A stretch of 64,000 nucleotides of DNA from NCBI GenBank assembly GCA_025655595.1, contig JAHXIO010000006.1, positions 124,001-188,000 on the forward strand. The letters are read 5' to 3'. The notes under the pieces are model-generated. The model saw only the letters and a list, made by a program, of their open reading frames with translations, was not told the origin of the DNA and searched no databases. Shown here one piece after another: positions 4,558-22,767 of this stretch (its first letter is position 1; the number at the start of each line of letters is the position of its first letter). A program made the translations under genes and the position numbers. This DNA comes from Candidatus Thiodiazotropha sp. (ex Monitilora ramsayi). Lineage in GTDB: Bacteria > Pseudomonadota > Gammaproteobacteria > Chromatiales > Chromatiaceae.

Positions 4558-4606
4558 GGTGAGGGACCGGGGTCTTGGATTTGGTATAGCCTGAGAACCA
4601 GACGGA

Positions 4607-5203: not shown

Positions 5204-5221
5204 GTTGCATACTCCTGCCGG

Positions 5222-5494
5222 TCAGGCTTCGCTCAGGCCGGGAAAGTAGTGATCGACGTCGAGATCCTGCACCTCGCTCATGATGGCGCTCAGGCCATCG
5301 AGCGCCTTGTCGATATTGCGGGCATCCGCTTCGCTGATCACCTCCCGGGCGGAGCCGAGAAAGGTCAGCAGCCAGGTGCCTTCGGGTTTGGGACCGGTCA
5401 ACATCATGTTGATCTGCTCCTCCCCGTTGCGGGTGCGGCAGCGCGATACGAACTCGCCCGATTCGATGATCTGTGCCGGAATGCCTACGCACAT
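5222..5494 (-). CDS. hypC: Hydrogenase maturation chaperone HypC/HybG family
   Basis: This 90-residue protein starts MCVGIPAQI, the MC(x)GIP signature of HypC, whose N-terminal Cys binds the iron of the nascent Fe(CN)2CO group and delivers it to the large-subunit precursor. Its start overlaps the upstream protease gene by 10 bp, so the two are translationally linked. Inside a hyb-type operon it most likely serves as the dedicated HybG/HupF-like chaperone. No hypABDE genes are seen in the window, so those must lie elsewhere. Confidence 0.93.
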   Translation of the reverse strand: MCVGIPAQIIESGEFVSRCRTRNGEEQINMMLTGPKPEGTWLLTFLGSAREVISEADARNIDKALDGLSAIMSEVQDLDVDHYFPGLSEA

Positions 5495-6039: not shown

Positions 6040-6064
6040 CGATATAACGCTCCTGGTTGGGTGC

Positions 6065-7768
6065 TTACAGCGCCTTGACCTTGACGATCTCGTTTTGCTC
6101 CGTGTCCACCATGTGGATGGCGCAGGCGATACAGGGATCGAAGGAGTGGACGGTGCGCAGCACCTCCAGGGGCTTCTCCGGATCGGCCACCGGGTTGTCC
6201 ATCAGTGACGACTCGTAGGGACCGATCTCACCGTTGGCGTCGCGGGGTCCGGCGTTCCAGGTGCTGGGAACCACCGCCTGGTAGTTCTTGATCTTACCGT
6301 CCTCGATCACCACCCAGTGGGAGAGGGTGCCGCGGGGTGCCTGATGGAATCCCACACCCTTGATCTCCCCTTTGGGGAAGATGGGGGCGTTGAATGTGTC
6401 GGTGTCGCCAGTGCCGATGTTGTCCACCAGCTTCTGCCACTGATCCTTCAGAGTGTCCATCATCACGGCGCAGCGTACCGCCCGGGCCGCATGGCGGCCG
6501 ATGGTGGAGTGGACCGCCGCCAAGGGGATATCCGGGTTCTGGGAGACCGCCTTGAGCGTGTCCATGGCCTGACCCAGGTACTTCTTGTAGCGTTCGTCGC
6601 CGTTGGCGACACCCACCAGGACATCCGCCAGGGGACCGACCTCTGCGCGCTTGTCGTAGAAGGTGGGGGCCTTGACCCAGGAGTACTTGCCGTCGTCCTG
6701 GAAGTCGGTGTATTCAGGCTCGGTCTCGCCCTCCCAGGGGTGGAGCGCCTTTTCACCCTGATACCAGGCGTGGCGGGAACTCTCGGCGACGCCATCGCGG
6801 AAGTAGGCGTCATTGAAGCTGGTGATCGGTTTCAGGGAGGCGAGATCGCCGTCTGCGATATAGCCGCCGGGCAGATCGAACACGGTGCCTTTGGTGTCCT
6901 GCGGGCAGTCCGGTACGGTCAGGTAGTTCATCACGCCGCCGCCGATACCGGCCCAATCGAGGTAGAAGGCACCCACGGCGGGGACGTCGGTCAGATAGGT
7001 CGACTTGACGAAGGGGTCCAGCTTGTCGATGAAGCCCTTGATCAGCATCAGCCGTTCGATATTCAACACCGACGGCGCGCCGTGACTGATCGAGTTACTG
7101 ACGCCGCCCACGGCCACGTTCTGGATATGGGGGCTCTTGCCGCCGAGGATGGCGACGATCTTGTTGGCGTAGTTCTGTACGTCCAGCGCCTGCAGATAGT
7201 GGGCGACCGCCAGCAGGTTGACCTCGGGCGGCAGTTTCATCGCGGGATGGCCCCAGTAGCCGCTGGCGAAGGGACCGAGCTGGCCGCTACCGACGAAGGT
7301 CTTCAGCCGCTCCTGAACCGCCTTCATCTCGTGGGGGCCGTTGAGGGGCCAGTCCGACAGGCTCTCGGCCAGTTTGGCGGTGGCCACCGGATCGGCGTCC
7401 AGGGCGGAGACCACATCCACCCAGTCGACGGCGGAGAGGTGGTAGAAGTGGACGATATGGTCCTGCACCGCGTGGGCGCACTGGATGATGTTGCGGATCA
7501 GTTGTGCGTTGACCGGCACTTCCAGGTCGAGGGCGTTCTCCACAGCGCGCACCGAGGTGATGGCGTGGACCGTGGTGCAGACGCCGCAGAAACGCTGGGT
7601 GTAGGTCCAGGCCTCGCGGGGGTCGCGGCCTACCAGTATCTTCTCGATGCCCCGCCACATCTGGCCGGATGACCAGGCCTTGCTCACTTTACCGTCGTCG
7701 ACCTCCACGTCGATACGCAGGTGGCCTTCGATACGGGTTATCGGGTCAACAGTAATTCTTGTCGTCAC
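6065..7768 (-). CDS. hybC: [NiFe]-hydrogenase large subunit, periplasmic group 1 uptake type
   Basis: This 567-residue catalytic subunit oxidises H2 at the NiFe(CN)2CO centre. Both cysteine pairs are present: RFCGVCTTVHA near residues 59-69 and DPCIACAIH near the C-terminus. A 15-residue tail (MVDTEQNEIVKVKAL) follows the cleavage His, as expected for the HybD-type protease encoded next. The RGIEKILVGRDPREAW L1 motif is clear. It sits in the order small subunit, HybA ferredoxin, HybB membrane subunit, large subunit, which is the group 1c (HybOABC) layout. It has no signal of its own and is exported with the Tat-bearing small subunit. Confidence 0.96.
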   Translation of the reverse strand: MTTRITVDPITRIEGHLRIDVEVDDGKVSKAWSSGQMWRGIEKILVGRDPREAWTYTQRFCGVCTTVHAITSVRAVENALDLEVPVNAQLIRNIIQCAHAVQDHIVHFYHLSAVDWVDVVSALDADPVATAKLAESLSDWPLNGPHEMKAVQERLKTFVGSGQLGPFASGYWGHPAMKLPPEVNLLAVAHYLQALDVQNYANKIVAILGGKSPHIQNVAVGGVSNSISHGAPSVLNIERLMLIKGFIDKLDPFVKSTYLTDVPAVGAFYLDWAGIGGGVMNYLTVPDCPQDTKGTVFDLPGGYIADGDLASLKPITSFNDAYFRDGVAESSRHAWYQGEKALHPWEGETEPEYTDFQDDGKYSWVKAPTFYDKRAEVGPLADVLVGVANGDERYKKYLGQAMDTLKAVSQNPDIPLAAVHSTIGRHAARAVRCAVMMDTLKDQWQKLVDNIGTGDTDTFNAPIFPKGEIKGVGFHQAPRGTLSHWVVIEDGKIKNYQAVVPSTWNAGPRDANGEIGPYESSLMDNPVADPEKPLEVLRTVHSFDPCIACAIHMVDTEQNEIVKVKAL

Positions 7769-7787
7769 AATGGAATCTCCTCAAAGG

Positions 7788-8927
7788 TCACGCGTGTTTT
7801 GCGTCATGTAGCACGGGAAACTTCTTCACCACGAACAGAAAGACCATGATCTCAATCGCCACCATGCCGGCGGTGACCATGATCTCCGGGGTAGAGGGGA
7901 AGTAGCTGTAGCCCGGACCCGGATCGTAGTTGATAAGAAAGGCGTTAAAGCGGTAGAGCGAGCCGGCGAAAAGCATGGAGACCGAGGCCCAGAGCAGTAG
8001 CGGCCCATGACCCCGGTATTTTGCTGAGCTCAACACCGCCAGCGGAAAGACGAACAGGGCCGTCTCCAGCAGGAACATCAGGCTAGCCAAATCCCCGGCG
8101 AAGATCAGACCCAACTTGCCGTTTATCAAGATCTCGCCGAAGCGGAAGATCAGATAGGCGGCGATCAGGCCGACGATCCCCTTGCCGAGACCGGACAGCA
8201 GCGGCGTCTCCGAATGTCGGCGAAAACCGACCGCGCTGAAGGAGGCCTCGAAGACCACCACCGCGAACCCCATGGTCACGGCTGTGAGGATGGCCAGCAG
8301 GGGTTGCAGATGGAGCGACTGCCAGAGGGGATGCACCTTGTATCCCATGGCGATCAGCATGGAACCGAGGGAGGACTGGTGCATGGTCGGCAGCAGCACG
8401 CCGAGGGCAATGAAGAGGAAGAGCACCTTGTTCAGTGCCTTCACCAACCGCTGGGCACCGAATCTCTCCAACACGGTGGGAGCGAACTCGATGCAGAGCA
8501 CGAGGATGTAGGTGGCGACACAGAGGCCGACCTCCAGCATCACCGAATTGAAGTTCATGTGCCAGGGGGTGAAGATGTTGTAGAACTGCCAGTAACGGCC
8601 CATGTCGATCATGGCGCCGACGCCACCCAGACCGTAACCGAGCAGACTGGCCAGCAGGGCCGGGCGCATCAGCGGGTGATATTTGCCCTTGTTCATCACA
8701 TAGACAGTAATGGCCAACGCGTAACCGCCACAGGCGAGGGCAGTCCCCACCACTACGTCGTAGACCACCCAGATGCCCCAGGCATAACCGCCGTTGAGGT
8801 TGGTCACGAAACCCATGCCGTAGATGAATCGCTGGGCCAGATAGAAGGTGCCGATCAGTGCGATAACGCCCAGTACCATGAAGGGGAGGGTCATGACCGG
8901 ACGTTTGAGGGGTTGGTATGCGCTCAT
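7788..8927 (-). CDS. hybB: Hydrogenase membrane subunit HybB (NrfD/PsrC family)
   Basis: This 379-residue integral membrane protein has about ten hydrophobic helices. It includes the HybB hallmark GGYAWGIWVVYDVVVGTALA near residue 45 and GMIDMG-type and YWQFYNIFTPWHMNF segments. HybB transfers electrons from the HybA ferredoxin to the quinone pool and may conserve energy. It contains no obvious haem-ligand pattern, consistent with the NrfD family. Its start overlaps the hybA stop by 4 bp (ATGA), showing translational coupling. The large-subunit gene follows after 19 bp. Confidence 0.95.
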   Translation of the reverse strand: MSAYQPLKRPVMTLPFMVLGVIALIGTFYLAQRFIYGMGFVTNLNGGYAWGIWVVYDVVVGTALACGGYALAITVYVMNKGKYHPLMRPALLASLLGYGLGGVGAMIDMGRYWQFYNIFTPWHMNFNSVMLEVGLCVATYILVLCIEFAPTVLERFGAQRLVKALNKVLFLFIALGVLLPTMHQSSLGSMLIAMGYKVHPLWQSLHLQPLLAILTAVTMGFAVVVFEASFSAVGFRRHSETPLLSGLGKGIVGLIAAYLIFRFGEILINGKLGLIFAGDLASLMFLLETALFVFPLAVLSSAKYRGHGPLLLWASVSMLFAGSLYRFNAFLINYDPGPGYSYFPSTPEIMVTAGMVAIEIMVFLFVVKKFPVLHDAKHA

Positions 8928-9895
8928 GAGTCGTCTCCTTCCTCTTCGTCGGTGTTGCGGCGCACCATGTAGGTGAGTCCGGCCAGGGCAATGGCGGGCA
9001 GGGCCATGTAGCTGTAGAGGGTGTGCTGTACTGTTTCCGAGATGGAGGCATAAGAGCGCTCCTCCAGCGGTGGCATGCCCAGCTTGTCGAAGGGGATGGA
9101 GGAGATGTGCAGGACGTTGGTGCCACCCGCCTCTTTCTCGCCCCAGACATGTTGCCGGTACTCGGGCACCGCCTTCTCATGGTGGCTGTCGGGCTTGCGG
9201 ATGTCGCCGCGTGGGTAGTTGTAGGTCTCTCCCGGTTTTAGCGCCATACGCCGTTTCGCTTCCTCCAACAGCGCCTTGCGGGATCCAAAGAGGGTGGCGC
9301 CGGTGGGGCAGACCTCGGCACAGCCAGTCATCTGGCCCTTGTCGATACGTTCCACGCCGGCCTGATTGCACATTTGGCACTTGTGGATCTCACCGAAGGG
9401 GTTGTCGTAGTCGAATTGGGGTACGTTGTAGGGGCAGCCCACCATGCAGGTGCGGCATCCGATGCAGGCATCGGGATGGTGGGTGACGATACCGGTCTTC
9501 GGATGGCGACGCATGGCGGTCACCGGGCAGACCGAGACGCACCCCGGGTCGACGCAGTGCATACAGCTGCGTTTTTCGAAGGCATAGCCGTCTGTCACGG
9601 CATCCTTCAAATTACCCTGGCCCTCGCTGTAGACCTTGATGACGTTGAGGGTCTGGGCCGAAAGGTCCTGGGCAGAATCCCATGCGGTCTCGTCGCCCAG
9701 AGGTGTCGGCGGCATGCCGTTGACCTCCTTGCATTTGCTGACACAGGCCTTGCAGCCGATGCAGAGGGTCGAATCGAAGAGCATGCCGATGGCCTCGTCT
9801 GCCGGCTCCAGGTTGCCCCTGGCCTCTGCAGTGCCGGCGCCCAACAGGGCCGCACCACCGCCGAGGGAGGCTTTGAGAAAGTCTCTGCGTTTCAT
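8924..9895 (-). CDS. hybA: Hydrogenase ferredoxin-like subunit HybA
   Basis: This 323-residue protein has a Tat signal (KRRDFLKASLGG), four [4Fe-4S] motif blocks (CIGCKACVSKC; CMHCVDPGCVSVCP; CIGCRTCMVGCP; CQMCNQAG with CAEVCP) and a single C-terminal transmembrane anchor (SYMALPAIALAGLTYM). It carries electrons from the small subunit to HybB on the periplasmic face. The four-cluster domain plus terminal helix matches HybA. The gene starts 11 bp after the small-subunit gene ends. Confidence 0.95.
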   Translation of the reverse strand: MKRRDFLKASLGGGAALLGAGTAEARGNLEPADEAIGMLFDSTLCIGCKACVSKCKEVNGMPPTPLGDETAWDSAQDLSAQTLNVIKVYSEGQGNLKDAVTDGYAFEKRSCMHCVDPGCVSVCPVTAMRRHPKTGIVTHHPDACIGCRTCMVGCPYNVPQFDYDNPFGEIHKCQMCNQAGVERIDKGQMTGCAEVCPTGATLFGSRKALLEEAKRRMALKPGETYNYPRGDIRKPDSHHEKAVPEYRQHVWGEKEAGGTNVLHISSIPFDKLGMPPLEERSYASISETVQHTLYSYMALPAIALAGLTYMVRRNTDEEEGDDS

Positions 9896-9906
9896 GGTGT
9901 CTCCCC

Positions 9907-11028
9907 TTACTCCCCGTCTTTCTCTTTACCGTCCAGCTTCCTTGCCGCCATGGCGGTGGCGCCGACCGCCACGCCGACTGCGGCACCGGCGAGTGCCGCT
10001 GCTGCTGGGGAGATGCCTGCCACATCCTCCCGATTTTCGATGGAGGGGAACATGTTCGGTGGTGTATGTGTCTTCACATCGGCCAGGCTGAATAGGGGCT
10101 TGTTGAAGCCGACGCCGCCCTCGGAGCAGCCGAAACAGGGGTGTCCGACACCGATGGGCCAGACGCCGCCACCCACGTTGTTGTACTCGAGGCTGGGGCA
10201 GTTGTTATAGGTCTCGGGACCCTTGCAGCCAAGCTTGTAGAGACACCAGCCTTTGCGGTGTCCCTCGTCGCCGAACTCCTCAGCGAATCGGCCGGCATCG
10301 AAGTGGGGACGCCGGTAGCAGTTCTCATGGATCAGGCGGCCATAGGCCCATTTCGGACGTCCCTTCTCGTCGATCGGCGGCAGCTTGCCGTAAGTGACGA
10401 AGTAGAGCACGGTACCGATGAAGTTGGCCGGATTGGGCGGACAGCCGGGTATGCTGACCACTGTCTTACCTTTCAGCAGTTGCGGGGCGCCGACGGCACC
10501 GGTGGGGTTGGGCGCAGCGGACTGGACACCTCCCCAGCTTGCACAGGAGCCGAAGGCGACAATGGCCGCTGCATGCTCAGCCGCCTCGTGGGTGATGTCG
10601 ACCATGGTCTCACCACCGATTTTGCAGAAGATGCCGTCGTTGGCGAGGGGGATGGCGCCCTCCACCACCAACAGGTATTTGCCTTTGTTCTCCTGCATGA
10701 CCTGCCGCTTGATATCCTCCACCTGATGGCCGGCGCCGGTATCGAGGGTCTGGTGGTAGTCGAGGGAGATGAGATCGAGAATGAGGTGTTCGAGGGAGGG
10801 CTGTTCGGAGCGTAGGAGGGATTCGCTGGGCCCCGTACACTCCTGGCCATGGAGCCAGATGACCGGCGGCCTGCGTTTCGGATCGGCCACCGCCTGCGCC
10901 ATCGCTATGGCTGCGTTCGTGGATAGACCGAGCGATGCTGCCACGCCGGTACAGAACTTGAGGAATGTCCTGCGAGATACGCCCAGGCGTTTCTCTACGG
11001 CCGAGAAGTCGAAATCGTTGTCTGCCAT
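9907..11028 (-). CDS. hybO: [NiFe]-hydrogenase small subunit (Tat substrate, membrane-anchored)
   Basis: This 373-residue electron-transfer subunit has the Tat motif SRRTFLKFC at residues 18-26, and the mature start ECTGPSES holds the first cluster cysteine pattern of small subunits. Further cysteines occur in AFGSCASWGG, PGCPPNP, CYRRPHFD, CLYKLGCKGP and HPCFGCSE, which supply the proximal, medial and distal clusters. A C-terminal hydrophobic helix (AAAALAGAAVGVAVGATAM) anchors it. It is the first gene of the seven-gene operon. No strong promoter motif could be fixed in the 170 bp upstream. Confidence 0.95.
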   Translation of the reverse strand: MADNDFDFSAVEKRLGVSRRTFLKFCTGVAASLGLSTNAAIAMAQAVADPKRRPPVIWLHGQECTGPSESLLRSEQPSLEHLILDLISLDYHQTLDTGAGHQVEDIKRQVMQENKGKYLLVVEGAIPLANDGIFCKIGGETMVDITHEAAEHAAAIVAFGSCASWGGVQSAAPNPTGAVGAPQLLKGKTVVSIPGCPPNPANFIGTVLYFVTYGKLPPIDEKGRPKWAYGRLIHENCYRRPHFDAGRFAEEFGDEGHRKGWCLYKLGCKGPETYNNCPSLEYNNVGGGVWPIGVGHPCFGCSEGGVGFNKPLFSLADVKTHTPPNMFPSIENREDVAGISPAAAALAGAAVGVAVGATAMAARKLDGKEKDGE

Positions 11029-11322
11029 CTGTTTCTCCGGATATCTATGGATGCGATCTGTGCCGGGCTCGCCTTTACGAGGTGTCTGAATACCGCAATA
11101 AATGTGCCGGTATTTTTTATCTCTGTCGATTCAATCGCTTAAGTACTAAATCAGCTTGTGAGGACGGTTTGATCTGAAAACCTGCTTTGCAGATCTATTT
11201 CCTTAGTGGATACAAGGTTTGCACCTGAGGCGGGAGAATTCGTCACCAGAGACGCTTTGTGGAGCCTGTCCGATTTCGCTAAGATGCGCGGGATTTACCT
11301 ATCGACAGGGCGCACAAAAACC

Positions 11323-12711
11323 ATGCTCAAAATCTATAACGATCTCACCCGGGAAAAAGAGACCTTTCAGCCCCTGGAGGCGGGAAAGGTCCGTATGTAC
11401 GTCTGCGGTATGACGGTTTACGACTTATGCCATCTCGGACATGCCCGGGTGATGGTGGTATTCGATGTGGTTTATCGCTACCTTCAGTCAAGCGGCTACG
11501 ATGTCACCTACATCCGTAACATCACCGATATCGACGACAAGATCATCAATCGGGCCAATGAGCGTGGTGTGCCCTTTCTGGAACTCACCGAAACTTTTAT
11601 AAAGGCGATGCATGAAGATGCGGATGCCTTGGGAATACTCAGGCCCAATGATGAGCCAAAGGCCACCCAGCACATGGATGAGATTCTCACGATGATCGGC
11701 CGGCTGATCGAAAAGGATCACGCCTATGCGGCGGAGAACGGTGACGTCTACTACGATGTACGCAGCTTTCCCGAATACGGCAAGCTCTCCGGCAAGTCGA
11801 TCGAGGATCTCCAGTCCGGTGCACGGGTTGAGCCGGGGGAGGCCAAGCGCGATCCTCTCGACTTCGCGCTATGGAAGGCAGCCAAACCGGAAGAACCGGC
11901 CTGGGATTCGCCCTGGGGCCGGGGACGGCCAGGCTGGCATATCGAGTGCTCCGCCATGTCGACCAAGGCGCTGGGGGATACCTTCGATATCCATGGCGGC
12001 GGGGCCGACCTGACTTTTCCCCACCATGAGAACGAGATCGCCCAGTCCGAGGGTGCCACCGGTCACCCCTTCGTCAAATACTGGATGCACAACGGCTTTG
12101 TGCGTATCAACGACGAAAAGATGTCGAAGTCGTTGGGCAACTTTTTTACCGTCAGAGAGATTCTCGAACGCTACAGAGCCGAAGAGGTACGTTACTTTAT
12201 CCTGACCAGTCAGTACCGCTCGCCCCTGAACTACGATACGGAACATCTCGACAATGCCCGAGCTGCCCTGACCCGTTTCTATACGGCGTTACGTGGGCTG
12301 CCGGAAGCTGAACCCGCCGGTGGTGAGGAATACGAAAAGCGTTTCCATGAGGCGATGAACGATGACTTCAACACGCCGGAGGCCCTGGCGGTGTTGTTCG
12401 ATCTGGTTAGAGAGATTAACCGTCTCAAGGAATCGGACGCAGCGGCTGCCTCGGCACTGGCCGGCGTATTGAAACAACTGGGTGACGTGTTGGGGATTCT
12501 GCAGGATGATCCCGAAGCCTATTTACGCGGTGGTACACAATCCGGAGATGACAGTCTCTCGGATGAGAAGATCGAGTCGTTGATCCAGGCCCGTATCGAT
12601 GCAAGAACCGGGAAAAACTGGGCCGAGGCCGATCGTATCCGAGATGAGCTGCAGGCGGCCGGTATCATCCTGGAAGATGGTCCCCAGGGCACCACTTGGC
12701 GCAGAGGCTGA
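11323..12711 (+). CDS. cysS: Cysteinyl-tRNA synthetase
   Basis: This 462-residue class I synthetase charges tRNA-Cys. The N-terminus [15 protein letters not shown] is typical and decided the ATG at 11323, since the open frame extending upstream to 11206 has no family resemblance. The zinc-site Cys in YVCGMTVYD, the HIGH-type motif CHLGHARV, the [10 protein letters not shown] motif and the HENEIAQSE zinc ligand region are all present. The C-terminal anticodon-binding part ([20 protein letters not shown]) is complete. It lies between the divergent hydrogenase operon and a REP element that begins 8 bp after its stop. Confidence 0.96.
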
Positions 12712-12719
12712 GAGATAAC

Positions 12720-12799
12720 GGTGGGGCAGGGCCCCACCCTACGCCCCGTTCATCGTGTCAAGGCTAGCCAATTACCGTAGGGTGGGGCCCTGCCCCACC
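12720..12799. repeat. REP pair (BIME), copy 1, upstream of the RAYT gene
   Basis: This 80-bp element has two GC-rich palindromic arms, GGTGGGGCAGGGCCCCACC at its left end and GGTGGGGCCCTGCCCCACC at its right end. They face each other across a 40-bp spacer that contains CTACGCCCCGTTC and TACCGTAG. It is identical base for base to the copy at 13401-13480. It begins 8 bp after cysS and 46 bp before the transposase gene. Confidence 0.93.
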
Positions 12800-12845
12800 G
12801 AAAACTATCTAAGAACCTCAAACAGACATCGCCAAGGAGCGGCCA

Positions 12846-13397
12846 ATGTCAAACTACCGAAGAGCCCGGATGCCGGGCGGCACTTATTTCTTCACTCTCG
12901 TTACATTCAATCGTAAGCTCCTATTTGATAATCCCCTCGCGAGGGAATGTCTGCATGGCGCCATGGCGGAGGTCAGAGTGAGGTATCGGTTCAGTATTGA
13001 AGCAATCTGCCTGCTGCCCGACCATCTCCACACGATCTGGCGGCTCCCTGAAAACGATCATGTATATTCCCAATGCTGGAATGAGATCAAAGGTATCTTT
13101 TCAAAGCGCTTTCATGGCCTGTCCGAACAAGATGGTCATCCATCACCATCTCGCCAACGAAAAGGAGAAGGCAGATTCTGGCAGCGACGCTTCTGGGAGC
13201 ATCTGATCAGGGACGAGGCGGATTACAGGAATCACATGGATTACCTGCACTACAATCCAGTCAAACATGGCTTGGTAGAACGGGTGGCCGACTGGCCCTG
13301 GTCCAGCTACCATCGCTATGTAAAGGATGGTACCTATCCCATAAATTGGGGCGGATCAACACCGGCCAGGATGAACCTTGCCACGGTAGGAGAATGA
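12846..13397 (+). CDS. REP-associated tyrosine transposase (RAYT, TnpA_REP)
   Basis: This 183-residue single-strand DNA transposase is of the Y1/IS200-like RAYT group. It begins MSNYRRARMPGGTYFFTLVT, the family start. It carries the HUH-type pair in PDHLHTIWRLP at about residues 57-67, the WQRRFWEHLIRDEADY segment and the catalytic Tyr region MDYLHYNPVKHGLV. The enzyme is thought to mobilise the REP pairs that flank it. Identical 80-bp elements lie 46 bp upstream and 3 bp downstream, which ties enzyme to substrate. The reading frame is intact. Confidence 0.95.
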   Translation: MSNYRRARMPGGTYFFTLVTFNRKLLFDNPLARECLHGAMAEVRVRYRFSIEAICLLPDHLHTIWRLPENDHVYSQCWNEIKGIFSKRFHGLSEQDGHPSPSRQRKGEGRFWQRRFWEHLIRDEADYRNHMDYLHYNPVKHGLVERVADWPWSSYHRYVKDGTYPINWGGSTPARMNLATVGE

Positions 13398-13400
13398 TTC

Positions 13401-13480
13401 GGTGGGGCAGGGCCCCACCCTACGCCCCGTTCATCGTGTCAAGGCTAGCCAATTACCGTAGGGTGGGGCCCTGCCCCACC
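13401..13480. repeat. REP pair (BIME), copy 2, downstream of the RAYT gene
   Basis: This is an identical 80-bp copy of the element at 12720-12799, in the same orientation, starting 3 bp after the RAYT stop codon. It may also serve as a 3'-end hairpin between the transposase gene and the convergent folD. Confidence 0.93.
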
Positions 13481-13528
13481 AATAACTCGACTCGAAGCGC
13501 GAAGTTAGACTCGTTTCGAAGTATGAAG

Positions 13529-14389
13529 TTAGCTGGCGGCGCTATGCAGCTCAGCCGCCTGCAGCGTGTTCTCCAACAGGGTGGCGATGGTCATGGGCCC
13601 GACACCGCCGGGCACCGGCGTGATCCAACTGGCCCGCTCCCTGGCAGCTTCGTATTCCACGTCTCCCACCAGCTTACCCTCATCGTTACGGTTCATGCCC
13701 ACATCGATAACGATGGCGCCCTCTTTGACCCAATCCCCCGGTACGTATTCCGCGCGGCCGATGGCCACCACCAGGACATCGGCGTTGCGTGCCTTCTCGG
13801 CCAGGTCCTTGGTGCGGCTGTGACAGACGGTGATGGTGCATCGGGCCGCCAACAGTTCCAGGGCCATAGGTCGTCCGACGATGTTGGACTGGCCGATGAT
13901 GACTGCATCAAGCCCCTCCAATTTTTGGCCGGTTCGCTCCAGCAGGGTCATCACACCTTTCGGTGTGCAGGAACGCAGCACCGGCATCCGCAGGGCCAGT
14001 CGACCCACGTTATAGGGATGAAAGCCGTCCACATCCTTGGTCGGTAGGATTCGTTCGATGACCGACTCTTCATCGATATGGCCGGGTAGCGGCAGTTGCA
14101 CCAGGATACCGTCGATGGCCTCGTCTTCATTCAGTTGGTCGATCAGTGAGAGCAGTTCATCCTGTGTGGTCGTGGCCGGCAGATCGTGGGAGACGGAGAG
14201 GAATCCCACCTCCTCACAAGACTTCCTTTTATTCCTCACATAGACCTGTGAAGCAGGATTATTCCCAACCAGAACGACCGCCAACCCCGGTCGACGCAGC
14301 CCGGCAGCAACCCGCTCATCCACACCTTGTTTAATCTTCTGCCTGAGATCCGCCGCAATGGCTTTACCGTCCAATATGTTCGCACTCAT
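13529..14389 (-). CDS. folD: Bifunctional methylenetetrahydrofolate dehydrogenase/cyclohydrolase
   Basis: This 286-residue cytoplasmic enzyme interconverts 5,10-methylene-THF, 5,10-methenyl-THF and 10-formyl-THF with NADP. The catalytic Tyr/Lys segment [24 protein letters not shown], the KDVDGFHP motif, the NADP-binding [15 protein letters not shown] and the terminal [16 protein letters not shown] are all visible. Length and motif spacing match FolD throughout. It is a single gene convergent to the RAYT cassette. Confidence 0.97.
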
Positions 14390-14550
14390 CTATCGTTCCG
14401 GTGTCTATTTTCGAAAGGAGACGCATAATACCTAATCGCCAGTGGCGTGTCAGTTTCGGGGACTGATACCATTGACCTGCGGGGGCATCGCCAGTATGAT
14501 TCCGCCCTTCGCGCACCCGGGTGATGTAACTTCGTTTCCGGGTTGGTTAT

Positions 14551-14627
14551 CGGGGTATAGCGCAGTCTGGTAGCGCGCCTGCTTTGGGAGCAGGATGTCG
14601 GGAGTTCGAATCTCTCTACCCCGACCA
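14551..14627 (+). tRNA. tRNA-Pro (anticodon TGG)
   Basis: This tRNA is 77 nt including encoded CCA. The acceptor stem CGGGGTA pairs with TACCCCG. The anticodon loop TTTGGGA sits between GCCTGC and GCAGGA, and the T loop GTTCGAATC is normal. Confidence 0.96.
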
Positions 14628-14635
14628 TTTTTTCT

Positions 14636-14978
14636 GCGCCCGTAGCTCATTTGGATAGAGCATCGGCCTTTGAGCGCACGCCCTGGGAGGCGTGCAGATT
14701 AGGAGCCTTTATGGGGAAAGGGAACCCATAGAGTGGATCGCACTGTATCGGGGAAACCTTAACAGGTCACGCTGATGGCAATCCCGAGGAAACCTTTGGT
14801 GATCCGGCATACCGGACGGGCCGCAGGCCCAGCACGAGGGGATCCGTAGAGACTATACGTGCGACACCTGAGACGGTGAAGAGATAGTCCAGACCCCAAA
14901 CCCCGATAGGGGGCGTCGAAAGGCGTAGCGGGTAAGCTAAGCCGAGGGTAGCAGGTTCGAATCCTGCCGGGCGTGCCA
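14636..14978 (+). tRNA. tRNA-Arg (anticodon TCT) interrupted by a group I intron
   Basis: The exons are 14636-14670 and 14937-14978 (77 nt after joining, CCA encoded). Joined, they give acceptor GCGCCCG/CGGGCGT, D-arm GCTC...GAGC, anticodon stem TCGGC/GCCGA with loop CTTCTAA (anticodon TCT), and T-arm GCAGGTTCGAATCCTGC. This closely resembles E. coli argU. The intron splits the anticodon after its first base (U34 | C35). Splice points were placed by requiring a U at the 5' exon end, a G at the intron 3' end and a 7-base loop. Confidence 0.9.
14671..14936 (+). other. Group I intron (IC3-like) in tRNA-Arg
   Basis: This 266-nt insert lies inside the anticodon loop. It carries group I core elements similar to the Anabaena tRNA-Leu intron: GGGGAAACC and GGCAATCCCGAGG (P4-P6), GAGACTATACG and AAGAGATAGTCC (the two P7 strands), and a terminal G. 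The likely internal guide is GGAGCC near 14701-14706, pairing with exon GGCCTT through U-G. An extra hairpin (GCACGCC/GGCGTGC) fills the P1 loop. No homing endonuclease gene is inside. It should self-splice or have descended from a self-splicing intron. Confidence 0.88.
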
Positions 14979-15034
14979 ATCGCGAGCAGAGGATCGGCAG
15001 AAAAGAGAGTGATCAGGGAAGAAGACAAGTTAAT

Positions 15035-15111
15035 GGTGGACGTAGCTCAGTTGGTAGAGCTCCGGATTGTGATTCCGGCGGTCGTGGGTTCGAGACCCAT
15101 CGTCCACCCCA
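15035..15111 (+). tRNA. tRNA-His (anticodon GTG)
   Basis: This tRNA is 77 nt counting the extra 5' G (15035) that pairs with C at 15108 and is unique to tRNA-His. The acceptor GTGGACG/CGTCCAC, anticodon loop with GTG and T-arm GTGGGTTCGAGACCCAT are regular, and CCA is encoded. Confidence 0.96.
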
Positions 15112-15120
15112 TCTTAAATT

Positions 15121-15196
15121 GGGCCATTAGCTCAGTTGGTAGAGCAGTGGACTCTTAATCCATTGGTCGTAGGTTCGAATCCTACATGGCCCACCA
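15121..15196 (+). tRNA. tRNA-Lys (anticodon CTT)
   Basis: This tRNA is 76 nt with encoded CCA. The acceptor GGGCCAT pairs with ATGGCCC. The anticodon loop CTCTTAA gives CTT, the minor Lys tRNA. The last 18 bases of this gene recur at 15358-15375. Confidence 0.95.
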
Positions 15197-15208
15197 ATCA
15201 ATGATCGA

Positions 15209-15236
15209 AGCCCGGACCCATGTGTTCGGGTTTTTT
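15209..15236 (+). terminator. Rho-independent terminator after the tRNA cluster
   Basis: A 7-bp stem (CCCGGAC at 15211-15217, GTTCGGG at 15224-15230, one G-T pair) with a 6-base loop is followed by six T. It ends the four-tRNA transcript 14 bp after tRNA-Lys. Confidence 0.88.
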
Positions 15237-15250
15237 GTTTCTACGAAGGA

Positions 15251-15375
15251 GATTCGAACCTACGACTTCAAATAAGCCAGGTTCGACAGCCGAGCAGAGC
15301 GAGGCTGAACGTGGGAGCATAGCGACCACGACCCGAAGGGCGAGGCGTAGCCGAGTAATCCTACATGGCCCACCA
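15251..15375. repeat. tRNA-Lys fragments: inverted T-arm copy and duplicated 3' end
   Basis: A copy of the tRNA-Lys 3' end (ATCCTACATGGCCCACCA, 18 bp) sits at 15358-15375, a direct repeat of 15179-15196. At 15251-15266 an inverted copy of its T-arm (GATTCGAACCTACGAC) is present. The 90 bp between hold short GC-rich repeats of the GCGAGGC type. No tRNA can fold here. The layout resembles an attachment-site scar or a decayed tRNA repeat. Confidence 0.7.
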
Positions 15376-15844
15376 GTATCAAAGGGCTTGCGTGATAGTA
15401 AGCGCCAACCCTTTTTTCTTTTGCGTGAACAATAGGGGACAGACCACGTTTTTAATACAAACTGGTACGGAAAAAGAGAATAAATGGGGTCTGTCCCCTA
15501 ATACATGAACCGGTACGGAAAAAGAGAATAAATGGGGTCTGTCCCCTAATACAATGCTGTACAAAGGTTGTTTGGTCGTGAACAAACGCAATAGGGTAAA
15601 TCCATCTAGATTATTGTTTTTCTGTTAAAGCTATTATTTCGTCACCCACAGGTCCCCTGTGTCGACTGACACCCCTACAATCTGTCCTTCAGAGAATCTG
15701 TTAATTTCAGTCCGTTTCTGTTCAATGAGAAAACGCCATATCGGCGGTCACGAGTTCGATATGCACGCCAAGGCCGGGGTATACCGATGTCATCCCGATA
15801 CACCTCGGCATTTTTTGCTCGAATGAGATTCAGATATCGCTCAA
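15376..15844. repeat. Gene-free gap with a 48-bp tandem repeat containing GGGGTCTGTCCCC
   Basis: Two near-identical units start at 15464 and 15512 (period 48 bp), each with GGTACGGAAAAAGAGAATAA and the palindromic core TGGGGTCTGTCCCCTAATACA. An inverted partial core (AGGGGACAGACCACG) precedes them at 15434-15448. This is a second short-repeat family, distinct from the 80-bp REP elements. I see no gene in the remaining 290 bp up to the cytochrome stop. Confidence 0.8.
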
Positions 15845-18800
15845 TCACCACTCACGGTCACTGACGCGATGACATCCCGAACTTCCACAGTTCTTGTTTT
15901 GCTCGACCGTGCCACTTTCTCCACCAATATGATCCCCTTTTCTTTCGAAATCACGCTCATGACAGGCAGCGCAATAGGGCGCGTATCCGGGTGAAGAGTA
16001 TGTGATCGTCTCGCTGTTATTGCGGTGGCAAGATATACAGGTCACTCTAGAATTATGGTCGCCCGGGTAGTCGCTGTTCACATGATGTGTGAAATCGATG
16101 GGTGCCCAGCCTTGCGTCGAATGACAGACGTTGCATTCCTGAGTTGTATCGAAATGGCCCGACGACATACCGATCGCGGTCGTGCCGTTATGGCAGGATG
16201 CACAATTGCCATTGATTTCCTGATGATCGAAGGTGCCGCCGACGAAAGTCGCTGTCGTATGGCAGAAGTGGCAGTCCAGGGAGGTGGGCACATGATCCTG
16301 TGTCTTGCCTGTGGCCGTCACACCATGGCAGGACTGACAATTATCCACGATGCCGGTGTGATCGAACACCGCGCCGGTGAATCCGCTGGTGGTATGGCAG
16401 ACACCGCAATCCTGATCGGTGACCACATGCCCGGCACTCTTACCTTGGGCAAATACACCATCATGACAGGACTGACAGTTGTCAACGATCCCGACGTGAT
16501 CAAACGTCGCAGGTAGGAATCCGGTCGTCACGTGGCACTCGCTGCAATCTGCATTGGTCGGTACATGATTGCTGGTCTTGCCTATGGCCAAGCTACCGTC
16601 GTGGCAGGAAACACAGTTGTTTGTAATGCCCTGATGGTTGAAACTTGCGCCTGCAAAAGCAACTGTATTGTGACAAACGGAGCAGTCCTCAGTGGCTGGA
16701 ATATGAGCCGGTGACATGCCTGTCGCCGTTTCCCCGTTGTGACAAGAAGAGCAGTTGTCGACAATGCCTGTATGATCAAAGACCGCAGTCGCAAAACTAC
16801 CGGGCAGGTGACAGACACTGCAATCGGCGGTTGTCGGAATATGATCGACATGTTTTCCAACTGCCGAAACACCATCATGGCAGGATGCGCAGTTACTGAC
16901 TATACCGGTGTGATCGAAAACCGCACCGGTAAAACTGGCTGTGCCATGACAAACACCGCAGTCCTCGGTGGTGGCGATATGCGTAGGCGACTTCGATAGG
17001 GCGCCGATTGCATCGTAGGTACCATCGTGGCACGAGACACAATTAGCGGTGATGCCGGAATGCGCGAATGTCGACGGATAGAATGCCGACGTAGTGTGGC
17101 AAGTTTCGCAGTCCTGATTCGTGGGTACATGTAGTAAAGCTGCATCCTTACCGCCGGCAAATTGACCGTTGTGACAGCCTTCGCAGCCACCGCTGATACC
17201 GGGGTGAACAACACTGAGAAAAGTCGACGAGGCAAAACCGCCTGGGTTGGTGTCAATGTGACACAAGCTGCAATCATCCTGCGTCGGGATATGGTTCTGA
17301 GTCTTGTCGATCGCGATGTTTCCATCGTGGCAAGAGGCGCAGTTGCTGCTATCTATGCCCAGATGATTGAAGTTAATGCCGGCAAAGGTGTCAAAGAGGT
17401 CCGTGCGGTGACATGACGAGCAGTCCTCGGTAGTCGGTAGGTGATTGGCCGACTTTCCGACACTGATCTCGCCGTCATGGCACAATACGCAGTTATCGAC
17501 AATGCCGGTGTGCTCGAACACCGCCGGGGAGAACTCGGTCGTGTTATGGCAGAAGGCACAGTCCTGGGTCGTCGGCACGTGGTTAATGAGCTTCCCGATG
17601 CTGATGACGTTGTCGTGGCACGCGGCACAATCACTGACGACGCCAACGTGATCGTAGACACCGCTGGTGAATGTGCCGGGTGTGTGGCAGATATCGCAAT
17701 CTTCGGTTGTCGGCATATGGTTAACCGACTTGCCGAGCGCATTGGTCCCGTTGTGGCAGGAGTCGCAGCGTACGGTGGTCACCACGTCAGTCGTGTGGTC
17801 GACAAATGCGCCGACAAAGCTCACTGTGTTATGGCATGCGCTGCAGTCCGCGGTGGTCACCGGATGATCGATTGTCACGCCGGTTGCCGTCGTTCCATTG
17901 TGGCAGGAGGCACAGGGCTGCGTGACAGAATCGAGGACCGAGTGGTTGAATGTACCGCCCATGTCGAAGGTCCTGACGCTATGGCAGACCACGCAATCCA
18001 CGCTCGTCTCGGGATGGTTCTGTGTCTGCCCGGTCGCGTCAATGCCGTTGTGACAGGTGACACAGCTATCCGTTATGTTGCTGTGGTCGACATACGCGGG
18101 CAGGAATGCGACTGTTGCGTGACAGAAATTGCACTCGCTTTCAGTTGGAATGTGCCCGCCATCCTTGCCCGGTGCCGTCGATCCGTTGTGGCACTGGGAA
18201 CAGCCACCGGTAATTCCGCTGTGGTCGTAACTGCCGTCTGGCAAGCGGTCCAGGAAGTGATCGGTATTGTGGCAATCGTCGCACTCCTGGGTCGTCGGAA
18301 CATGGAACTCGGATTTGCCTATGGCCACTACACCGTTGTGGCACTCGCTGCAGTTCCCAAAGACTTCCTGATGATCGACAGAGGGGACCGCGGCAAAATC
18401 TGAAGAGGAGTGACAGGCCTGACAGGTATTGCTGGTCGCGATGTGATTCGGCGTTTTACCGACCGCTACCACGCCATTGTGGCAGGTTGCGCAGTCATCG
18501 ACGATGCCGGTATGGTCGAAGAGCGCACCTGCGAAGCTGGTGGTGGTGTGGCAGGCGATGCAATCCTCTGTGGTTGGAATATGCGTTATGGGCTTACCTC
18601 TGGCCCCGGCCGCGGTGTAACTGCCATCGTGGCAGGTGACGCAGTTTCCGTTGATTCCCTGGTGATCGAAAGTGCCGCCGGTAAAGGTGGTGGTGGTATG
18701 GCAGACGTGGCAACCCAGGGTAGTGGGGATATGCCCCTGCGGTTTGCCGATTGCTGTTACGCCATGGCAGGTATCGCAGTTGTCGACTATGCCGGCATGA

Positions 18801-21478
18801 TCAAATCCTGCTCCGACAAAACTGCCGGTCCCGTGGCAGACGCTACAGTCCTGATTGGTCTGAACGTGTCCGGGCGGTTTGCCCTGGGCGAACACGCCAT
18901 TGTGGCATGACTGGCAATTATCGATGATCCCGATGTGCTCGAAGGTTGCCGGCACAAAGCCCGTGGTGATGTGGCATAGACTGCAGTCACTGTTGGTCGG
19001 TACATGACCGCTGTGCTTACCCCTGGCGAGGTTGCCGTCGTGGCACAGGGCGCAGTTGTCCACCGTGCCGCGGTGATCGAACAGGGCGCCGGCGAATGCA
19101 GTCGGATTGTGGCAGGCGGAACAATCCTGCGTCGTCGGAATATGCATCAACGGCTTGCCGGTGGCTGCGACTCCGTCGTGACAGGATGCACAGTTGTCGA
19201 CTATCCCCGCATGATTAAACACGGCCGTGGCAAAGCTGCCGGTGACGTGGCAGGTGCTGCAATCTGCAGTAGTCGGAACATGCCCCAGATTTTTACCGGT
19301 CGCCGTGGTCCCATCGTGACACGAGGCGCAACCGTCGATGATTCCGGTATGATCAAAGACGGTGCCGATAAAGGTTGTAGTGTTATGGCAAACGCCGCAA
19401 TCCTCGGTTGTTGACACATGTGTGGCTGACATGGCGACAGCCCCGAGTGCCGTATAGCTGCCATCGTGGCATGAAGCACAATCACCGGTGATACCCGAAT
19501 GATTGAATGTCGATGGGGTGAATGCCGTGTTGGTGTGACAGAGAAAACAATCCTGGCTTGTGGGTACATGCACGGCGGCCGTATCCTTGCCGATCGCGAA
19601 TCGATCGTTGTGGCATCCCTCGCAGCCACGGGTGATGTCCTGGTGGCCGGAGCCGAGAAAGTTTGAGGAGGCAAAGCCGCCGGTAGTGGTGTCGAAGTGA
19701 CAGGTACCACAGTCATCCAGCGTCGGAATATGATCGACGGAACGACCGAGTGCAATAACACCGTCGTGGCAGGTGGCACAGCCACTGCTGTCTATGCCCG
19801 CGTGATTGAAGGATATACCGGCAAAGGTGTCAAAGACGTCCGTGCGGTGACATGACGAGCAGTCCTCGGTAGTCGGTAGGTGATTGGCCGACTTACCGAC
19901 ACTGATCGCGCCATCGTGGCACGATACGCAATTGTTGACGATACCGGTATGCTCGAAGGTCGCTTGGGTAAAATCCGTCGTGACATGGCAGGCCGAGCAA
20001 TCCTGGGTTGTCGGCAGATGGGTTATGGACTTGCCGGTGCTGATGACGTTGTCGTGGCACGCGGCACAATCACTGACGATGCCTGCGTGACCGAAGGTAC
20101 CACTGGTGAATGTGCCGGGTGTATGGCAGACATCGCAATCTTCAATGGTTGGCATATGGTTGTCTGTCTTGCCGGATGCGCTGGTTCCGTTGTGGCAGGA
20201 ATCGCAGCGGACCGAAGTCACAGACTCACTGGTGTGGTCGACGAACGCGCCGAGAAAGCTCACCGTGTTATGGCACGCACTGCAGTCCTCGGCAGTCACC
20301 GGATGATCGATCGTTGTGCCCGTTGCCGTGGTTCCGTTGTGGCAGGAGGCGCAGGGTTGGGTCACAGAATCGAGGAGCGAGTGGTCGAAGACATCGGCCA
20401 TGTTAAAAGTGCTGACGTTATGACACACAGCGCAGTCCACGCTTGTCTCGGGATGGTTCTGTGTCTTTCCTGTTGCGTCAACGCCGTTGTGACAGGTGAC
20501 ACAGTTGTCCGTTATGTTGCTGTGGTCGACATGCGCGGGCAGGAATGCCTCCGTCGTGTGACAGGAACCGCACTCACTTTCAGTGGCGATGTGTCCTGTA
20601 TTCATGCCCGTGGCGGTCGTCCCATTGTGGCATCTGGTGCAGGAGCCGATATTGGCACTATGGTCGAAGCCGCCGCCGGGCAGGCGATCCAGGAAGTGAT
20701 CGGTATTGTGGCATTCATCGCACGCCTGGTCCGTCGGGACATGAAACTCCGATTTTCCTATGGCCAGAACACCGTTGTGGCACTCGCTGCAGATCCCGAA
20801 GACTTCCTGATGATCGACCGAGAAGACTGCGGAAAACCCCAAGGGTGAATGACACGTCTGGCAGGTATTGCTGGTTGCCAGGTGATTCGGCGATTTTTCA
20901 GAAATTTGTTCGAATTCGCCGCTGTGGCAGATCTCGCAGTTAGATGACAGTCCCTGATGATTGGCGGGCCCCGTGGGGCGTTCCCCCTCATCAGTCACGA
21001 CAACGGAGCTAACGCTACGCTGACTGGATTCACCTTCGGCGCTTACGACCAGTTGAACCGTGTAGATGCCTTTCACATCGGCGACGAAGCTGGGAGTCGC
21101 CGTTGTGTTATCCCGCAGTTCGGTGGTGCTGTTGTCAGGTTTGTAGGAAAAGGACCAGCTATAGCTCAGGGGCTCGGTCGATGAAGTCCAGGACAAACTG
21201 CCATCCAACGTCGCCACTTCACCGACTCGGACTGCCGTGATGGGGCCCGGTCTGGCAAGAATCTCGACGAAATTCTCATCTGCGGGCGGTGTTCCACTAC
21301 CGTCATCGCTATTGCCGTTATCGTCGTCCGGACCCGTATTGCTACCTGCATCCGTGGAGGTGGCGGTGTCGGCGCTGCTTCCGCCACCACAGCCGGCAAT
21401 TTGCAGCGTCAGAAAGCACACAAGCAGGCATGTAAACAGTGTGCGGGTGTATCCCTGGATCGATATTGTGTGCTTCAT
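15845..21478 (-). CDS. Giant multihaem c-type cytochrome lipoprotein (about 70 haem motifs)
   Basis: This 1877-residue exported lipoprotein has a hydrophobic signal ending in the lipobox LQIAGC. A Gly/Ser/Asp-rich linker follows, then a PKD/Ig-like beta domain at about 70-165, and from about residue 180 a continuous haem region. By eye I count 70 CxxCH motifs plus a last CGSSGCH (CX4CH). Haems alternate in a repeat of about 24 residues, with an extra His of type H(V/I)PTT.DCS.CH likely serving as distal ligand. The haem region is two superrepeats of 34 motifs, offset by 813 codons. The ATG at 21478 is preferred over a TTG two codons earlier. It is probably a cell-surface conduit or filament for electron transfer. 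No porin or partner gene is adjacent. Confidence 0.95.
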   Translation of the reverse strand: MKHTISIQGYTRTLFTCLLVCFLTLQIAGCGGGSSADTATSTDAGSNTGPDDDNGNSDDGSGTPPADENFVEILARPGPITAVRVGEVATLDGSLSWTSSTEPLSYSWSFSYKPDNSTTELRDNTTATPSFVADVKGIYTVQLVVSAEGESSQRSVSSVVVTDEGERPTGPANHQGLSSNCEICHSGEFEQISEKSPNHLATSNTCQTCHSPLGFSAVFSVDHQEVFGICSECHNGVLAIGKSEFHVPTDQACDECHNTDHFLDRLPGGGFDHSANIGSCTRCHNGTTATGMNTGHIATESECGSCHTTEAFLPAHVDHSNITDNCVTCHNGVDATGKTQNHPETSVDCAVCHNVSTFNMADVFDHSLLDSVTQPCASCHNGTTATGTTIDHPVTAEDCSACHNTVSFLGAFVDHTSESVTSVRCDSCHNGTSASGKTDNHMPTIEDCDVCHTPGTFTSGTFGHAGIVSDCAACHDNVISTGKSITHLPTTQDCSACHVTTDFTQATFEHTGIVNNCVSCHDGAISVGKSANHLPTTEDCSSCHRTDVFDTFAGISFNHAGIDSSGCATCHDGVIALGRSVDHIPTLDDCGTCHFDTTTGGFASSNFLGSGHQDITRGCEGCHNDRFAIGKDTAAVHVPTSQDCFLCHTNTAFTPSTFNHSGITGDCASCHDGSYTALGAVAMSATHVSTTEDCGVCHNTTTFIGTVFDHTGIIDGCASCHDGTTATGKNLGHVPTTADCSTCHVTGSFATAVFNHAGIVDNCASCHDGVAATGKPLMHIPTTQDCSACHNPTAFAGALFDHRGTVDNCALCHDGNLARGKHSGHVPTNSDCSLCHITTGFVPATFEHIGIIDNCQSCHNGVFAQGKPPGHVQTNQDCSVCHGTGSFVGAGFDHAGIVDNCDTCHGVTAIGKPQGHIPTTLGCHVCHTTTTFTGGTFDHQGINGNCVTCHDGSYTAAGARGKPITHIPTTEDCIACHTTTSFAGALFDHTGIVDDCATCHNGVVAVGKTPNHIATSNTCQACHSSSDFAAVPSVDHQEVFGNCSECHNGVVAIGKSEFHVPTTQECDDCHNTDHFLDRLPDGSYDHSGITGGCSQCHNGSTAPGKDGGHIPTESECNFCHATVAFLPAYVDHSNITDSCVTCHNGIDATGQTQNHPETSVDCVVCHSVRTFDMGGTFNHSVLDSVTQPCASCHNGTTATGVTIDHPVTTADCSACHNTVSFVGAFVDHTTDVVTTVRCDSCHNGTNALGKSVNHMPTTEDCDICHTPGTFTSGVYDHVGVVSDCAACHDNVISIGKLINHVPTTQDCAFCHNTTEFSPAVFEHTGIVDNCVLCHDGEISVGKSANHLPTTEDCSSCHRTDLFDTFAGINFNHLGIDSSNCASCHDGNIAIDKTQNHIPTQDDCSLCHIDTNPGGFASSTFLSVVHPGISGGCEGCHNGQFAGGKDAALLHVPTNQDCETCHTTSAFYPSTFAHSGITANCVSCHDGTYDAIGALSKSPTHIATTEDCGVCHGTASFTGAVFDHTGIVSNCASCHDGVSAVGKHVDHIPTTADCSVCHLPGSFATAVFDHTGIVDNCSSCHNGETATGMSPAHIPATEDCSVCHNTVAFAGASFNHQGITNNCVSCHDGSLAIGKTSNHVPTNADCSECHVTTGFLPATFDHVGIVDNCQSCHDGVFAQGKSAGHVVTDQDCGVCHTTSGFTGAVFDHTGIVDNCQSCHGVTATGKTQDHVPTSLDCHFCHTTATFVGGTFDHQEINGNCASCHNGTTAIGMSSGHFDTTQECNVCHSTQGWAPIDFTHHVNSDYPGDHNSRVTCISCHRNNSETITYSSPGYAPYCAACHERDFERKGDHIGGESGTVEQNKNCGSSGCHRVSDREW

Positions 21479-21799: not shown

Positions 21800-22506
21800 G
21801 TTCACTCCGTCACACGAAGTTAACGAGTTTCGAATGTTATCAACACACCTAAAAGTTTCTGCGAAAATTCTATAAGTCGTTAACGGGGGATGAGGGTAAA
21901 GAGATGGCCGATCGCAAATGCTTCACGTTGGCAGCAGAGGTCAAGGTGTGCTTCTGAGATTCTCAGCCCACCCGCTGACAGCGTGGTTCGAGCGAGAAAA
22001 TAAACGGGCAATTGTGGCAGTGTTTTTCAAAAATTACCGACCTCTCGGTTTACTCATAAGAAAAACCGAATGCGGTGGTCAGATGATTAGATGTATGACC
22101 AATGAAAACGAAGAATTACAAACACCGACAGATAAATTTAGTCAATGTGCTGCGTTGATCGGATGAATCCGCAGCCGAGTTCTTACTTCTAAGTCATACT
22201 CCGAAAAATCCGCTGCAAATGGAAAGATGAGATAGAACCCAGGTTGCATGTGACTCTGTGTTACAGATTTGATCTTCTATATATTTAGAGGAGGATATGA
22301 TTGAATAAGGATAAATTAATGGCGGGTGTAAGTAGTTAGTGATCACTTATGCTCTTTTGTTTTTTGCGCATACGACAACATCTGTGTAACGTAAAAAACC
22401 TATTTTTATAACTTCGCCGTCAAACCGCATCTGGTTCCATCTTTCGTCTTGCCGGGGGAATGTCGCGATCCATTGGCTGCCAGTTTATCTCCATGGGTTT
22501 ATTTAT
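21800..22506. other. Gene-free gap, AT-richer than its flanks
   Basis: About 700 bp between the giant cytochrome region and rnfH. Open frames are short and lack coding character. A well-formed GAGGAGG site near 22290 precedes only a three-codon frame. I see no promoter motif, terminator or repeat that I can support. Confidence 0.4.
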
Positions 22507-22767
22507 TTACTCATCCCGCCGCTCCACCAGTTCGGGGTCGGCGGTGATTTCCCGGTAGATCTCGACTCTCGCTCCCTCTTCAATTGTCGCGGTCAGTTTG
22601 GTCACCTTGCCGAAGATCCCCACCTTCTGTTTCTCCAGATCGATTTCCGGAAACTGCTCCAGCATGCCGGAGTGCTCGATCGCTTCGAGTACTGTACTGC
22701 CGTCTGGTACTTCCAGTTTCAGCCAGACCTGCTTGAATCGGTCGGCATAGGCGACGCCAATATTCAT
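22507..22767 (-). CDS. rnfH: RnfH family protein
   Basis: This 86-residue ubiquitin-like-fold protein has the RnfH pattern: N-terminal VAYADRFKQVWLKLEVPDG, then IGIFGK-like KVGIFGKVTKL and VEIYREITADP at the C-terminus. RnfH is the last gene of many rnf operons; its exact role in Rnf assembly or function is not settled. It starts 11 bp after rnfE. Confidence 0.9.
   Translation of the reverse strand: MNIGVAYADRFKQVWLKLEVPDGSTVLEAIEHSGMLEQFPEIDLEKQKVGIFGKVTKLTATIEEGARVEIYREITADPELVERRDE

Follow-up and report, generated by a model that had tools for sequence, protein, structure and literature searches.

What is new in the 64,000-nucleotide stretch of Candidatus Thiodiazotropha sp. (ex Monitilora ramsayi) DNA analyzed here (the window) is a doubled protein within a PKD lipoprotein branch of the giant cytochromes, a class that is itself known. 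Its 70 CxxCH motifs lie mostly in two copies of one superrepeat, its relatives carry that superrepeat once, and the genomes of these relatives tend also to encode a PCC3-type porin-cytochrome conduit. The explanation that fits best as a whole, and that we consider rather probable, is that of a surface-anchored haem wire that extends a PCC3-like conduit and derives from a doubled PKD lipoprotein of ~36 haems.

The gene (Table 1) begins with an ATG at 21478 and ends with a stop codon at 15845-15847 on the minus strand; an alternative TTG start at 21484, two codons upstream, would lengthen the protein by 2 residues. A preliminary description of this DNA had placed the gene correctly at 15845-21478, without giving the strand, and had claimed a lipobox and a PKD-like domain; an IAGC lipobox core and a beta domain are indeed both found at the N-terminus. 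The strict PROSITE-type lipobox pattern fails because of a Gln at -4. This pattern was matched in 14 of the 16 relative frames tested; the remaining two both come from L103, where one frame has a very short N-terminus and the other starts inside the gene. The cytochrome is probably lipid-anchored, its sequence being suggestive of a lipoprotein, and it may be placed at the cell surface. The Pfam family PKD_4 matches with an E value of 1.5e-5 and 25.4 bits, just below its cut-off of 27. In an AlphaFold2 model the PKD-like region forms a confident beta domain (pLDDT blocks 65-93), and a Foldseek search with this model returned the PKD domain 2yrl as the best PDB match (E 8.9e-7), with many Ig-like domains lower.

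Table 1. Features of the 70-haem cytochrome gene, in window coordinates.
Feature	Position	Strand	Basis or remark
70-haem PKD lipoprotein cytochrome gene	15845..21478	minus	single open frame, 1877 codons plus stop
Signal peptide and lipobox	21389..21478	minus	LQIAGC-GGG, lipidated Cys30 expected; sequence and pattern comparison with relatives
PKD-like beta-sandwich domain	20984..21268 (~residues 71-165)	minus	Pfam, AlphaFold2, Foldseek
Superrepeat A, haems 2-33, 757 residues	18629..20899	minus	72% identical to B over 740 residues
Junction, haems 34-35, extra units like haems 22-23 / 56-57	18479..18628	minus	unit comparison
Superrepeat B, haems 36-67, 757 residues	16190..18460	minus	self-comparison, unit comparison
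C-terminal cap, haems 68-70 and CX4CH, end GCHRVSDREW	15848..16189	minus	sequence; shared with PCC3 extracellular cytochromes

An exact count on the minus strand agrees with the 70 CxxCH motifs and one CX4CH motif (CGSSGCH) counted earlier by eye, and found no C-x3-CH or C-x5-CH motif in the frame; CGSSGCH stops seven residues short of the C-terminus. Pfam Cytochrome_C7 matches in 20 stretches of the protein. Most motif pairs are spaced by 23 residues, the small unit being 46 residues with two haems (2 x 23), and the irregular values of 27, 26, 29, 25 and 22 repeat in both halves; the mean is 26.8 residues per haem. The regularly placed extra His reported previously is borne out, with at least one His outside the motif in 69 of the 70 haem linkers; in 62 of the 70, a His lies exactly at -7 relative to the first Cys. 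Among the inter-motif linkers alone, 68 of 69 contain a His, against a mean of 46.5 and a maximum of 56 in 10,000 random trials. Nearly every haem therefore has a candidate second ligand, and the haems are probably bis-His ligated. They may also stack continuously along the array; in AlphaFold2 models of haems 1-12 (with the PKD domain) and 57-70, built on six-row alignments, the haem parts stayed below pLDDT 50.

Self-comparison revealed the 813-codon period claimed in the preliminary description as the dominant one: an offset of 813 residues ranks first, with 52.9% identity over a 1064-residue overlap, and the next, an offset of 46, reaches 23.2%. At the DNA level 2439 bp is the top offset (60.3%), and the longest exact repeats, of 57 and 42 bp, both sit at this distance. 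So do the two occurrences of the run CAGGTATTGCTGG, at 18423 and 20862, which has no further plus-strand copy in the window. The motif-by-motif correspondence first given, haems 2-35 to 36-69, stands for haems 2-33 and 36-67 (32 motifs each) and fails beyond them, as haems 34 and 35 share only 8/23 and 4/23 residues with haems 68 and 69. They resemble instead haems 22-23 and 56-57 (13-16/23 residues identical), and as such the two extra junction units look like what an unequal crossover would leave. Identity between the copies averages 71.8% over units 2-32 and is 18/23 in unit 33, the 740-residue comparison in Table 1 starting just before haem 2.

Both superrepeat copies are kept by purifying selection, as judged from codon comparison, dN being well below dS (0.18 and 1.26 by NG86; 0.20 and 0.76 by YN00). 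Third codon positions of A and B agree at 0.67-0.75 in haems 2-16 (versus 36-50) and at 0.36-0.46 in haems 17-32; the higher agreement in the former suggests that the first half of the superrepeats was later homogenized by gene conversion. In a FastTree phylogeny built from 31 registered units of each protein, A and B group as sisters with a support of 0.999 (other supports 0.44-1.00), and each copy is 45-64% identical to ten single-superrepeat relatives versus 72% to the other copy. Because A and B are sisters and mutually closest, the doubling postdates the divergence from the ten relatives compared. The ancestor would have been a PKD lipoprotein cytochrome of ~36 haems that this lineage had either acquired or kept, and whose core was doubled by an internal tandem duplication.

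Relatives were sought in two ways. Six peptide patterns were scanned against the genome_contigs collection, from which records close to the own genome were possibly omitted, and gave 23 stretches, 9 of them encoding relatives. Four are complete PKD lipoproteins, L065 (36 haems), L066 (32), L070 (32) and L071 (36), whose haems align in order with one superrepeat and both ends; L068 and L069 are incomplete or broken, and in L067, L072 and L073 a 21-haem gene adjoins the match, as in PCC3. In addition, 369 genomes of the class were searched with the PKD domain and first haems (window 20496-21310), and 77 had matches. Counting as PKD-type, as judged by eye, a match that starts at query position 25 or earlier and runs for ~180 residues or more, seven genomes among the matches listed qualify (G000, G351, G135, G211, G067, G334 and G070). 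This added complete frames in L095 (31 haems), L098 (32), L100 (32), L101 (36) and L102 (adjacent genes of 31 and 30). L097 encodes at least 40 haems with a 371-residue internal repeat in a frame that continues past the contig end. Frames that are shorter or interrupted, with 9, 16, 10 and 14 haems, occur in L096, L099 and L103, and L094 corresponds to the broken L069 gene. The ten complete gammaproteobacterial relatives (L065, L066, L070, L071, L095, L098, L100, L101 and both L102 genes) share with the 70-haem protein a lipobox or its core, a PKD-like start, the haem order and the cap. However, each carries a single superrepeat with 30-36 haems in all, and the 70-haem protein is the sole doubled one of these eleven. 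Among the matches listed, the 70-haem type was seen in its own genome only of the 22 genus genomes searched, and the gene is therefore dispensable. Text searches of open-licence PubMed Central articles found no paper describing a combination of PKD domain and multihaem cytochrome, and a text search for multihaem cytochromes in Thiodiazotropha likewise found none.

PCC3 systems, as described by He et al. 2017 (PMC5566968), combine a porin with two multihaem cytochromes, one periplasmic and one extracellular, and with an inner-membrane protein that has SGXXG and two WX3HX13H motifs; the periplasmic and extracellular cytochromes have medians of 21 and 34 haems, with a maximum of 85. The same paper takes 22-39 residues per haem as wire-like, a range within which the 70-haem protein falls, with a very high haem number in motif-bearing repeats. 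Partner porin-cytochrome genes, for which a search elsewhere had been proposed, are present elsewhere in the genome (G000:C6), where a PCC3-type locus encodes an inner-membrane protein, two proteins with 21 and 49 haems, and a candidate porin of 827 residues. The inner-membrane protein has WX3HX13H at 96 and 278, SGIFG at 137 and, by simple hydropathy, some five hydrophobic stretches; the candidate porin ends in Phe and has in Pfam only SPOR and weak TPR matches. Matches to the 70-haem protein occur in 20 of the 22 genus genomes searched, among the matches listed. In the genus loci read, the giant cytochrome gene adjoins a 21-haem gene, which is the PCC3 arrangement. There are 18 complete pairs, whose giant member has 67 haems in 15 cases, 61 haems in two and 49 in the own genome; in two further pairs the giant gene is split between contigs.

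Comparison of these proteins indicates that the 70-haem protein is, at the level of its sequence, a paralogue of the PCC3 extracellular cytochrome and a distinct, solo type. It is 45-50% identical, in six pieces, to the 49-haem protein of its own genome, and it has in common with PCC3 extracellular cytochromes the 23-residue spacing, the -7 His and a density of ~25-27 residues per haem. Most complete PCC3 extracellular cytochromes also have the GCHRVSDREW-type cap, and they likewise hold tens of haems (49-67 in complete frames of the genus). In contrast, the genus PCC3 extracellular proteins start with an FDH..TGF.LTG.HR stretch rather than a PKD domain and have the 21-haem gene beside them, and the lipobox pattern was found in only 1 of 28 PCC3-like frames, that one truncated by the end of the stretch analyzed. 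The 70-haem gene stands alone with tRNAs, folD and rnf genes as neighbors, outside any cluster of the PCC3 kind.

The association of the two types was then assessed across genomes. The inner-membrane gene occurs in 61 of the 369 class genomes at E 0.001 and in 41 at E 1e-30 or better; at the latter threshold 6 of the 7 PKD-type genomes (among the matches listed) have it, versus 35 of 362 others, with a Fisher p of 8.6e-6, or 6.6e-5 without the own genome, for genomes that are not independent. The exception, G211, is a 72% complete genome and carries a porin-like gene. Of 12 genome records tested, 11 had the inner-membrane gene and all 12 the candidate porin; as G135 and G405 gave identical matches and are seemingly one assembly, these counts become 10 of 11 and 11 of 11. 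No 21-haem gene was found beside the PKD gene in the PKD-type loci read, so co-occurrence with PCC3 is at the genome level only; the PKD gene of L065 follows a frame of 11 haems that has a PCC3-type start. Since the genomes are not independent and both traits mark cytochrome-rich bacteria, these numbers document an association, not a partnership.

Based on these results we propose that the protein is an outer-membrane lipoprotein in which a PKD domain next to the lipid anchor would be followed by an array of 70 or perhaps 71 haems, most of them presumably with bis-His ligation. Two GspD-type (type II secretion) secretins score above cut-off in the own genome. Type II secretion is an export route of MtrC-like proteins, and the lipoprotein-like signal together with the two secretins would allow surface export, as for Shewanella MtrC. 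Exposed in this way, the array would act as a lipid-tethered wire, and unavoidably also store electrons, accepting electrons from a separately encoded PCC3-type conduit or donating electrons to it, and would lengthen the reach of that conduit beyond the outer membrane toward a distant electron partner such as a mineral, a sulfur particle, another cell or matrix. MtrA spans ~100 Å with ten haems, as cited in PMC5566968; at MtrA-like spacing, 70 haems in extended form would cover several hundred angstroms and exceed the periplasm. Modelled PCC3 cytochromes look long and mostly linear, according to a Gallionellaceae survey (PMC10734462). More tentatively, and with somewhat less than even confidence, we speculate that gammaproteobacteria could have in the PKD-anchored giants a second, unrecognized class of surface haem wire, which works with PCC3 conduits although its genes lie apart from theirs, and whose reach evolves by copying blocks of ~16 to 34 haems; the 70-haem protein would then be a working wire of twice the ancestral length. 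If the partnership is true, PCC3, itself proposed from genomes, gains a surface-anchored element, and the short and doubled proteins (30-36 versus 70 haems) would offer natural pairs of the same make for studying how haem number affects conduction, reach and storage.

Haem number rather than reach might be what counts, in which case the protein would be an electron capacitor or sink, at the surface or in the periplasm, that buffers redox swings. Selection on capacity predicts haem counts that vary by whole-unit duplication, as they do among the relatives (30-36, at least 40, and 70), and storage has been suggested as one role of PCC3 cytochromes (PMC10734462). However, both copies keep their spacing and unit order, and the anchor and the cap recur in relatives, all of which goes beyond the needs of a mere store; we regard this role on its own as rather unlikely and retain the surface wire.

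The gene neighborhood bears on a second alternative, in which the lipoprotein would stay on the periplasmic side of the outer membrane, bridging inner-membrane donors, for example Rnf, to outer-membrane conduits. Lipoproteins face the periplasm by default, as is generally known, and an rnf cluster at 27901-22507 lies on the same strand and ends ~1.0 kb upstream of the 70-haem start codon. No rnf cluster was recognized around the PKD-type relatives, though, as judged by eye from frame starts with few of them searched by Pfam, and seventy extended haems would be far longer than the periplasm is wide. Past the end of the gene are tRNA Lys, His and Pro genes and folD. We read the block ends in other genus members, hydrogenase-cysS-folD-tRNA in G010, G015 and G021 and rnf in G010, G020, G015 and G016. 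The match to the window ends at 15,198-15,248 for the folD-tRNA block and at 22,493-22,514 for the rnf block, and the two blocks lie on separate contigs or, in the single-contig genome G015, ~0.69 Mb apart. The 70-haem gene thus fills a junction that is absent from the genus members read, and its adjacency to rnf is recent. With no rnf beside the relatives (by eye) and the flanking blocks separate elsewhere, an Rnf-linked role was rejected as the main reading; a plain operon with rnf was rejected in view of the 1.0-kb gap, where the search for sigma-70-like promoters found none although chance alone would give 1.6. The periplasmic bridge is accordingly quite unlikely in our estimate. The gene of the proposed wire may have reached its place either by transfer or by retention with loss elsewhere; its GC3 of 0.65 is within the range of its neighbors, 0.40 to 0.85. 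An IS200-like (Y1) transposase gene (12846-13397, plus strand) lies near the junction, and short repeats GGGGACAGACC in both orientations lie beside it at 15433-15548. The nearest relatives of the rnf cluster, in two other genus members, have 91-93% DNA identity, and a NiFe hydrogenase gene group is located at window 5485-11028.

Comparison with solved cytochromes addresses a third possibility, raised in the preliminary description, that the regularly repeated protein is the subunit of a polymeric nanowire assembled head to tail like OmcS, OmcE or OmcZ. The best solved-structure sequence matches (E about 3e-8 to 6e-6) are 6r2q_A, which we take to be the MtrA chain of the MtrCAB complex, and the MtrC chains 9eov, 8qbz and 4lm8; 28pb_A, named only 'Cytochrome c', is also among them. 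Chain A of PDB 6r2q is recorded as cystathionine beta-synthase yet matches as a multihaem cytochrome. No recognized filament cytochrome appears among these matches, and one end of each subunit would be capped by the lipid anchor and the N-terminal PKD domain, which makes such a filament very improbable. The DmsE/MtrA family model TIGR03508 scores 223.1 bits against a cut-off of 192.2, a sum over 14 repeated stretches, and the MtrC/OmcA model TIGR03507 reaches 158.9 bits against 209.3, below its cut-off. MtrC and OmcA of Shewanella are cell-surface lipoproteins with ten haems and beta domains between them, whereas the present protein has its 70 haems in one run. Finally, a doubling created by misjoined short reads is scarcely credible: although the draft genome has 46 contigs and some relatives' repeats end at contig edges or hold N runs (L097, L094), the copies have diverged by 28% at the protein level and, per 40-codon block within the repeat, by 9-36% in DNA, on the strength of which we reject an artefact, and a longest shared exact string of only 57 bp within one intact frame speaks against short-read error.

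Giant haem counts of this kind have a precedent in archaea, where a Methanoperedenaceae cytochrome with 113 haems was called the highest recorded in a 2020 paper (PMC7082337); this protein is larger than ours, and with 113 haems already published there the designation 'largest cytochrome' was rejected. Further large frames were noted in passing. L104 (G246:C17:36000-55900) has at 7022-19237 on the plus strand a 4071-codon frame whose 133 CxxCH motifs exceed the 113 haems given in PMC7082337; it lies ~1.8 kb from a PCC3-type inner-membrane gene. L105 (G135:C131:10000-23882) has at 3984-13808 on the plus strand a frame of 3274 codons that contains 129 CxxCH motifs and ends in a C-terminal tail rich in Gly and Met. 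L106 (G070:C126) encodes at 4783-7836 and 7926-13424 on the minus strand adjacent 37- and 73-haem cytochromes with poly-Pro and Gly/His-rich tails.
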